64,000 bases of DNA, from contig JACRBI010000043.1 of NCBI GenBank assembly GCA_016234495.1, positions 124,001 to 188,000 of the forward strand, written 5' to 3'. Under the pieces are notes generated by a model. That model was not told the origin of the DNA. It made no database searches and saw only the letters and a list, made by a program, of their open reading frames with translations. Source of the DNA: Chloroflexota bacterium. GTDB lineage: Bacteria > Chloroflexota > Anaerolineae > Anaerolineales > Villigracilaceae. The stretch's first letter is position 1, and the number at the start of each line of letters is the position of its first letter. Shown piece after piece: positions 23,344 to 24,581 of this stretch. The position numbers were made by a program, and so were the translations under genes.

Positions 23344-24273
23344 TTAAAACCAATCCTGCTTGTAGAAAATATATGCGGCAAGCGCGGCAAACCCGACCGA
23401 GATCGCGATGATGATCAGGAATCCGTAAGGGTTGGATTCTGAAAGCGGCAGCGGGACGTTCATGCCAAAGAAAGCGCCGACCGTGCCCGGCAGCGAGATG
23501 ATGATGGTGAGCGCGGCCAGCACTTTCATGACTCCATTGAGATTGTTGGAGATGATCGAAGCAAAGGCGTCCATCATGCCTGAGAGAATTTCGGTGGCGA
23601 TGCTGGTCATCTGGATGGCCTGCTGATTTTCGGTGAGCACATCTTCGAGCAGGTCCTGGTCTTCTTCATAATAATTAAACAACTGGGTCTTTTGCACCCG
23701 TTCCATCATCACTTCGTTTGAGCGCAACGCAGTCGAAAAATAAGTGAGGCATTTTTGATACTTGAGAAGTTCCAGCACTTCACGGTTGCGGGTGGATTTT
23801 TGGAGTTGGTCTTCGACCAACTCTGTGGCGCGGTTGATCTCGCGTAACAAATAAAGATAGCGCGTTGAGGTTTCAAGGAAGATATAAAGCGCAAGGCGGT
23901 AGCGCTTGCCGGTTTTGAGCAGGCGATATTTTCCATTCGTTAATGTCTTGAGGATGTCGCTTTCGTAACGGCAGACGGTGATTACTTTGTTGGCGAGGAT
24001 CATGATTCCAAGCGGAACCGTGTTGTAGGGAATATCGCTTTCAGGCTGGTAAATAGGAATTCGAAGCAGGAGGAAGGTGTATTCTTCATCGCGCTCCATG
24101 CGGGGCATTTCATCCTGGTCGAGGGAATAATTGATATAGTCCATGTCCATGCCCCAACTGACAAGTTTTTCACTCTCCTCCGGGGTTGGGTCAACCACAT
24201 TGACCCAGGACCCGTTGACGATCGTTTCGAGCTTTATCAGCCCCTGTTCATAGTTTTTGTAAATACTCAGCAT
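23344..24273 (-). CDS. corA: CorA-family magnesium/divalent cation channel
   Basis: 309 residues. A large alpha/beta N-terminal cytoplasmic domain leads through a long helix to two C-terminal transmembrane helices; the selectivity motif GMN is at 270-272 at the end of the first, and the second ends in a basic KQDWF tail. CorA imports Mg2+ (some members Co2+, Ni2+ or Zn2+). Start ATG has the strong Shine-Dalgarno AAGGAGG. The gene lies behind a leader ORF, terminator and anti-Shine-Dalgarno described separately. Confidence 0.93.
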   Translation of the reverse strand: MLSIYKNYEQGLIKLETIVNGSWVNVVDPTPEESEKLVSWGMDMDYINYSLDQDEMPRMERDEEYTFLLLRIPIYQPESDIPYNTVPLGIMILANKVITVCRYESDILKTLTNGKYRLLKTGKRYRLALYIFLETSTRYLYLLREINRATELVEDQLQKSTRNREVLELLKYQKCLTYFSTALRSNEVMMERVQKTQLFNYYEEDQDLLEDVLTENQQAIQMTSIATEILSGMMDAFASIISNNLNGVMKVLAALTIIISLPGTVGAFFGMNVPLPLSESNPYGFLIIIAISVGFAALAAYIFYKQDWF

Positions 24274-24277
24274 GAAT

Positions 24278-24342
24278 GCCTCCTTGATATAAAAAAAACA
24301 CCTTGGGATATTCTCCGAAGGCGGCGGTTTTAATCAAGGAGC
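24278..24342 (-). promoter_or_regulatory. Attenuator and Shine-Dalgarno-sequestering structure in the corA leader
   Basis: Read on the minus strand. CCTTCGG (24321-24315) pairs with CCCAAGG (24307-24301; one C-C mismatch) and is followed by T8 (24298-24291): an intrinsic terminator. CTCCTTGAT (24341-24333) pairs perfectly with ATCAAGGAG (24288-24280), which contains the corA Shine-Dalgarno. TTCGGAGAA (24319-24311), part of the terminator, is also perfectly complementary to TTCTCCGAA (24434-24426) inside the leader ORF, giving a mutually exclusive antiterminator. Confidence 0.7.
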
Positions 24343-24353
24343 ATTTGGTCAGT

Positions 24354-24488
24354 TCATTCCCCGTGCAGCCTAAAAAGACAGTGACGCGCGGGAATATAGT
24401 TGACTTGCACCTGTGAGAATCGCATTTCGGAGAAATTAAAACGGGATATTACTGGGCGGGATAAATGGTCATCCGCATCCACGGCCAT
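24354..24488 (-). CDS. Leader ORF upstream of corA
   Basis: 44 codons from ATG 24488, or 42 from the GTG at 24482, which is the better start because AAAGGAGG lies 8 nt before it. The product begins with an acidic patch DADD and continues HLSRPVISRFNFSEMRF, ending RLHGE. Codons 19-21 (TTC TCC GAA) form one arm of the antiterminator. It ends 13 nt before the anti-Shine-Dalgarno arm of corA. It is too short for a domain and is best explained as a regulatory leader peptide. Confidence 0.65.
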   Translation of the reverse strand: MAVDADDHLSRPVISRFNFSEMRFSQVQVNYIPARHCLFRLHGE

Positions 24489-24581
24489 CACCTCCTTTTG
24501 GGGTTGAGATTGAATAACGATCATACTGCTTGAGTTTATACTCCCGCCAAATGGTATTCGTCAAGAGGGGAAATAAAACCT

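Follow-up and report, generated by a model that had tools for sequence, protein, structure and literature searches.

An acidic leader ORF with an intrinsic terminator precedes corA and other Mg2+ transporter genes in Anaerolineales and may act as a ribosome-controlled attenuator

The window, a stretch of 64,000 nucleotides from a Chloroflexota genome, carries on its minus strand the corA gene (23344..24273, ATG start at 24273), which encodes a Mg2+ transporter of 309 amino acids (Pfam CorA, 2.2e-52) and is the gene presumed to be regulated. The nearest solved structures are CorA chains, with 4cy4 at 5e-30. All elements described for this locus lie on the same strand. A promoter was predicted from the sequence at 24535..24564, consisting of TTGACG (24564-24559), an 18-nt spacer and TATAAA (24540-24535); a TTGAC-N17/18-TATA layout also precedes the related leaders of genomes G018, G083, G096, G060, G105, G122, and G149. 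It is followed by a leader ORF (24354..24482) with a GTG start at 24482 and a TGA stop at 24356-24354, which encodes the 42-aa peptide MDADDHLSRPVISRFNFSEMRFSQVQVNYIPARHCLFRLHGE. The Shine-Dalgarno sequence (SD) of this ORF, AAAAGGAGG (24491..24499), continues with GTGAT and extends to AAAAGGAGGTGAT, 12 nt of which are complementary to the 16S tail GGATCACCTCCTTT, a sequence taken from same-genus genomes and not found in the window genome's own assembly. Alternative starts would give 44 codons from ATG 24488, which is only a few nucleotides from the SD, or 56 amino acids from the in-frame ATG 24524, about 4 nt past the predicted transcription start; GTG 24482 is the best-spaced one. The peptide begins with the Asp-rich sequence (M)DADD (24468..24482), which is conserved in relatives and which we propose as the Mg2+-sensitive point.

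Codons 17-19 from the GTG (19-21 from ATG 24488) contain the putative antiterminator 5′ arm TTCTCCGAA (24426..24434), which is complementary over 9 bp to the 3′ arm TTCGGAGAA (24319-24311) within the 5′ arm and loop of an intrinsic terminator. The terminator stem-loop CGCCTTCGGAGAATATCCCAAGGTG (24299..24323, -10.2 kcal/mol) spans 25 nt, contains a single internal mismatch and runs into a U8 tract (24291..24298). A simple consensus terminator scan of the window did not pick up the stem 24323-24299, probably because of this mismatch. Finally, an anti-SD sequence CTCCTTGAT (24333..24341) is complementary to the corA SD ATCAAGGAG (24280..24288). An initial annotation of this DNA had described a 42-44 codon ORF with a strong SD, the 9-bp complementarity of its codons 19-21 (counted from ATG 24488) to the terminator hairpin, and a T8 run, and all of these are present.

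All leaders with 5-nt spacing, namely those of the window (24524-24480), G018, G008, G042, G083, G096, G060, G105, and G110, have an in-frame ATG 42 or 51 nt before the position of the NTG start, almost where transcription is predicted to begin. In G110 both the NTG start and the SD are lost; the NTG is replaced by TCG and only the upstream in-frame ATG remains. Loci L034 and L035 (G042 and G008) carry about 130 nt with inverted repeats between the TTGAC/TATAA promoter and the leader, which resemble part of a mobile element.

The initial annotation had taken this for a corA leader and had suggested looking for its conservation upstream of corA in Anaerolineae, which did not turn up. In a DNA search of 201 relatives the leader was found in six other genomes, where it lies at mgtE or PRC-MgtE_N genes, and none of these other matches lies directly before corA; the corA genes of relatives have a different acidic leader, described below. 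The Asp-rich start and the arm complementarity are nevertheless kept, at mgtE and PRC-MgtE genes rather than at corA. Elsewhere the leader stands in front of a gene for a PRC-barrel, MgtE_N and CBS protein with an Nramp gene next to it downstream, and it also occurs before some full MgtE genes. The downstream Nramp protein is nearest to structure 7qia (1e-60, compared to 1e-10 for MntH chains), which we take to be the Nramp-related Mg2+ transporter of Eggerthella lenta. The combination of an MgtE-domain ORF with an Nramp protein resembling 7qia is consistent with an NrmT Mg transporter, as NrmT genes mostly follow an ORF for an MgtE-like cytoplasmic domain (PMC4072509). The leader is thus not primarily a corA leader but mainly one of PRC-MgtE/NrmT and mgtE genes, and its target genes encode exclusively Mg2+ transporters (CorA, MgtE, or PRC-MgtE/Nramp). 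In G018, a nifS-like aminotransferase gene is followed by the leader, mgtE and corA, and in the window the same aminotransferase gene is followed by the leader and corA; no MgtE domain was found in the window genome, whose completeness is 98%. Judged from these two genomes, the simplest history would be a loss of mgtE with the leader retained on corA, and the two gene orders suggest that the element was passed between Mg2+ importers.

To define the distribution of the leader, we scanned 84,980 species, one genome each, with the pattern SD + NTG-GAY-GCN. The 13 matches were all from Chloroflexi MAGs, most of them labelled Anaerolineales; leaders with 4-nt spacing also exist and were found with a pattern of different spacer. 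In a manual count based on a visible SD, an acidic start and a terminator, the leader was present at 21 of the 28 testable PRC-MgtE genes of the order. Beyond these 21, the PRC-MgtE genes of G135 and G148 are preceded by ORFs without a strong SD that begin MDTNLSLDPDH and MDTDLTLDPDH, respectively. An automatic criterion (SD-led ORF of 12-75 aa with at least two D/E in residues 2-6) was positive for 18/26 PRC-MgtE genes, among which the one in G172 is probably a chance match, compared to 0/86 background genes with a gap of at least 150 nt and 7/323 of all background genes, which were drawn from 400 kb of G000/G025. At PRC-MgtE genes outside the order the leader is mostly absent; an exception is formed by three genomes of family f18 with the sequence SD-N-ATA-GAC-GCG-GAT-CAC. 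In these (L112, L114, and L115 of G425, G458, and G296, one family), a strong SD is followed by ATA at the position of the start codon and then by GAC GCG GAT CAC AAA, so that an AUA start is possible. The one match of the SD-NTG-DAN pattern among viral contigs (L064, 3910-3939) turned out to be a holin-like phage ORF, MDANGLPIEMIVSQGIFAVLFVWLF, and is unrelated.

Two side observations concern mgtE. On contigs G022:C4 and G085:C66 (L077, L080, L119, and L126), PRC-MgtE genes and full-length mgtE lie within a few kb of each other, and one leader may therefore serve two transporter types. Full mgtE genes of other families (L119-L138) have upstream short ORFs such as MNDESVPSSSGRE, MNDETVPSTTEH, MRPKDDSVPSDRG, and MNTDPDSYQQTAPPG, which suggests further acidic/proline leader types.

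The N-termini of the leaders in relatives read MDA[DS]-, MDDD-, MDSD-, or MDTD-. Of the 31 leaders compared, 27 have Asp at residue 2, encoded by GAT or GAC, 25 have Ala at residue 3, with all four GCN codons in use, and 28 have Asp at residue 4. The acidic N-terminus is thus kept through synonymous codon change, and the remainder of the peptide is unconserved between subgroups. In G018, indels shift the frame across the arm, leaving TTCTCCGAA intact and the stop position unchanged. Taken together, the synonymous changes at the start and the frameshift with an intact arm indicate conservation at the peptide level for the start and at the RNA level for the arm. Conservation in the alignment is accordingly concentrated in the SD, the start codon, the Asp codons, the arm and the terminator. 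Exceptions to the acidic start are the mgtE leaders of G012 and G023, which begin MSSANGDKQ with one acidic residue near the start. This anatomy, its conservation and its association with Mg2+ transporter genes are direct observations.

An intrinsic terminator with a U tract lies between the leader stop and the gene in 31/31 leaders, a few of these terminators being found only with a shorter hairpin limit. Pairing of the arm was scored by the best contiguous duplex that codons 8-30 could form with the 5′ arm plus loop of the terminator. The 9-bp pairing of TTCTCCGAA with TTCGGAGAA in the window gave p = 0.010 versus dinucleotide shuffles, and the combined Fisher p for 19 representatives was about 7e-7; as the leaders are related to each other, these and the following p-values are approximate. 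The arm begins at codon 12-18 in nearly all leaders, with wholly different sequences between subgroups (TTCTCCGAA, TTCTTGAGGGT, CACTGGCAGAA, GAGCGAAA, and GGCGAAAAG); for example, TTCTTGAGGGT pairs with ACCTTCGGGAA in G059 and GAGCGAAA with TTTCGCTC in G026. Position and complementarity of the arm across relatives are far beyond chance. Mean non-cognate duplex energies were uninformative as a pairing test, since many arms are shared or GC-rich, and the contiguous-duplex test and a switching test were used instead.

For the latter, fold ensembles were computed with a 28-nt ribosome footprint masked. For the window, the predicted terminator probability was 0.03 with the ribosome at codon 4, 0.07 for the free RNA and 0.96 with the ribosome at codons 16-20; a ribosome at codons 14-22 favours termination, and one at codon 4 antitermination. 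Averaged over all leaders, the terminator probability was 0.53 (codon 4) versus 0.92 (codons 16-20), compared to 0.88 and 0.89 in the same two states after shuffling of the ORF interior (combined p=2e-9 for the switch statistic). No clear switch appeared in the fold model for G149, G080, L061, L052, and the mgtE leaders of G012, G023 and G026, nor for G018 with the ribosome at codon 4. With the ribosome at the stop codon the terminator probability was 0.42, compared to 0.95 for an RNA anchored at the predicted start of transcription. A ribosome that has reached the stop codon leaves the arm exposed, so that the OFF state may hinge on timing or ribosome density. The locus has two hallmarks of a ribosome-mediated transcription attenuator: an SD-led leader ORF overlapping the antiterminator arm, whose translation is deduced from the SD and the codon evidence, and a mutually exclusive terminator and antiterminator set by ribosome position in the predicted folds. 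Pairing, conservation and fold ensembles, including the folding with and without a ribosome that the initial annotation had called for, support computationally its proposal of an antitermination switch coupled to the leader ORF.

The anti-SD had been regarded as a third, mutually exclusive element. Its 9-bp complementarity (CTCCTTGAT with ATCAAGGAG) is real in the window; it is statistically marginal, with p 0.017-0.038 versus dinucleotide shuffles, and unconserved. When anti-SD complementarity was sought in all leaders, a comparable signal was seen only in G149 (p 0.003) and weakly in G097/L055. The antiterminator excludes the terminator, and it also excludes the anti-SD helix, as the two together would form a pseudoknot; the anti-SD helix, however, encloses the terminator, and these two are nested and compatible, so that mutual exclusion applies to only part of the scheme. 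Moreover, in folds of the full RNA the corA SD is paired in every state at equilibrium, which suggests that the anti-SD either helps only kinetically or is incidental.

Across the family, corA itself is preceded by another acidic leader ORF, which contains PP, M..TDESDLGSSDNNPPS (L004-L031 and L179-L207), here termed class II, with the consensus M..(T)DESDLGSSDNNPPS.GG... A loose class II pattern matched in 52/65 corA upstream regions, and the D, E and P codons show synonymous change. The end of the ORF, CATCACG-TAG, pairs with CGTGATG to form a hairpin at the stop codon; 5/7 of these pairs change on both sides, and 100% of cells are paired. Alternatively, CGTGATG within GCGTGA may pair with TCACGC adjoining the corA SD, although covariation in this second hairpin was not significant. 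Because of the position of the alternative hairpin next to the SD, class II regulation is probably translational. The presence of an independent acidic/proline leader on corA strengthens the Mg2+ reading.

We consider it likely that the window leader and its relatives (class I) constitute a ribosome-controlled transcription attenuator of Mg2+ transporter genes in which, as in MgtL, translation is aborted at the Asp-rich start when Mg2+ is low. According to this model, the very strong SD would load a ribosome. With sufficient Mg2+ the ribosome would clear the Asp-rich start and occupy codons 12-22 at the time when RNA polymerase transcribes the terminator; with the arm blocked in this way, the terminator would fold, and transcription would stop before the transporter gene. 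At low Mg2+ the ribosome would be destabilised or slowed at M-D-A-D-D by intrinsic ribosome destabilisation, and the arm, left free, could pair with the terminator's loop and 5′ side, so that the transporter is made. A ribosome positioned at codons 3-6 would shield RNA up to about codon 10 and spare the arm, and hence abortion or delay at the acidic start is predicted to cause antitermination. From these features we infer translation of the leader, its response to Mg2+, drop-off at the acidic start and the direction of control. That low Mg2+ is the cause of abortion is suggested by analogy with MgtL and mgtQ and by the fact that every regulated gene encodes a Mg2+ transporter. The acidic and proline residues of MgtL lead to ribosome drop-off at low Mg2+ (PMC11282234; PMC11552253), its negatively charged residues dissociating the ribosome (PMC11282234), although di-acidic motifs alone are not always destabilising (PMC11282234).

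The same attenuator might instead respond to a pause of the ribosome at the acidic start, relieved in an EttA- or EF-P-like manner, in which case the signal could include factor availability or the energy state. EttA acts where acidic residues occur early in the chain, and also on MgtL (PMC11282234); a PP is conserved in the family's other corA leaders; and an arm placed just past the region covered by a ribosome at codons 3-6 would fit a pause no less than drop-off. The precedent of MgtL is drop-off, however, and the restriction of the targets to Mg2+ transporters indicates Mg2+ as the signal, and we consider this version of the attenuator rather unlikely. We regard it as less probable still that the leader is a general translation sensor, which would release the arm and switch on the transporter whenever leader translation drops, with no sensing role for the Asp-rich start. 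The extended SD is indeed about as conserved as the peptide start, and the free RNA of the window leader favours antitermination, but Asp persists despite synonymous codon changes and across lineages with different SD contexts, and two unrelated leaders at Mg2+ genes are both acidic at the start.

A Mg2+-binding riboswitch with an incidental ORF would fit the gene types, which are also controlled by M-box elements (PMC4072509). Searches with Rfam gave no match apart from chance ones at E up to 10, and conservation follows the SD, start and Asp codons, arm and terminator, so that this explanation appears very improbable. Hardly credible, finally, is a set of chance features in an unremarkable 5′ UTR whose terminator is read through: each window arm alone reaches only p 0.01-0.04, but the arrangement recurs across many genomes, its layout constant while the sequences change.

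We think it somewhat more probable than not that Anaerolineae sense Mg2+ via ribosome stability with acidic leaders of their own, which have moved between transporter genes: class I, of the MDADD type with an intrinsic terminator, at NrmT, mgtE and the window corA, and class II, M..TDESDLGSSDNNPPS with alternative hairpins by the SD, at corA across the family. If so, ribosome destabilisation triggered by the nascent chain, known as a Mg2+ sensor from enterobacterial mgtL and mgtQ, would be a recurrent one outside the Proteobacteria. Two unrelated acidic-leader designs at several kinds of Mg2+ transporter genes in another phylum would indicate a general principle, and the constant spacing, with the arm starting at codon 12-18 just past the footprint at codons 3-6, would represent a geometric rule. 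The open-access literature yielded no report of such leaders from Chloroflexota, nor of any acidic leader at mgtE; the "mgtE motif" of PMC11109978 is a riboswitch candidate of Thioalkalivibrio and distinct from the leader described here.

Among known systems, the trp-type attenuators share the leader ORF, the intrinsic terminator and the antiterminator arm inside the ORF. They differ in that the leader described here lacks a series of codons for an amino acid that the operon makes, its targets being metal transporters, and in that ribosome stability is the event proposed to be sensed. The M-box (ykoK) likewise controls mgtE, corA and NrmT genes by a terminator, whereas the element described here has a conserved ORF and no aptamer, and gave no match to the covariance models of the M-box or other metal riboswitches in Rfam at curated or loose threshold. 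The mgtQ element of Salmonella combines an acidic short ORF with alternative stems and a Mg2+ transporter (PMC8092293), but it is intergenic and acts on mgtB translation, whereas the present element is a putative terminator switch located where the operon begins. With corL-corA of Salmonella and E. coli, the window locus shares an upstream ORF before corA, and inverse coupling of expression is reported for corL (PMC11552253); corL, however, is coupled to Rho and is poorer in acidic or proline residues than mgtL, whereas our leader comes with an intrinsic terminator and is shared with mgtE and NrmT operons. The leader further resembles mgtL-mgtA of E. coli and Salmonella, where a short ORF with an acidic start also lies in the 5′ leader of a Mg2+ transporter gene and where poor leader translation is likewise expected to raise transporter expression. 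As expected for an MgtL-type leader, the acidic/proline start is kept as peptide, except for the G012/G023 mgtE leaders. The differences are that mgtL relies on Rho-dependent termination, whereas an intrinsic U-tract terminator is present in every leader here, and that the leaders, of 32-54 codons, belong to a different phylum and to different transporters. On inspection there is no evident sequence similarity to mgtL or corL, MDADDHLSRP.. and its relatives sharing only acidity with the EPDP start of MgtL (PMC11282234). By analogy, the element, which is real and conserved, is best explained as the MgtL principle combined with an intrinsic terminator, with Mg2+ sensing by the ribosome as the proposed step.
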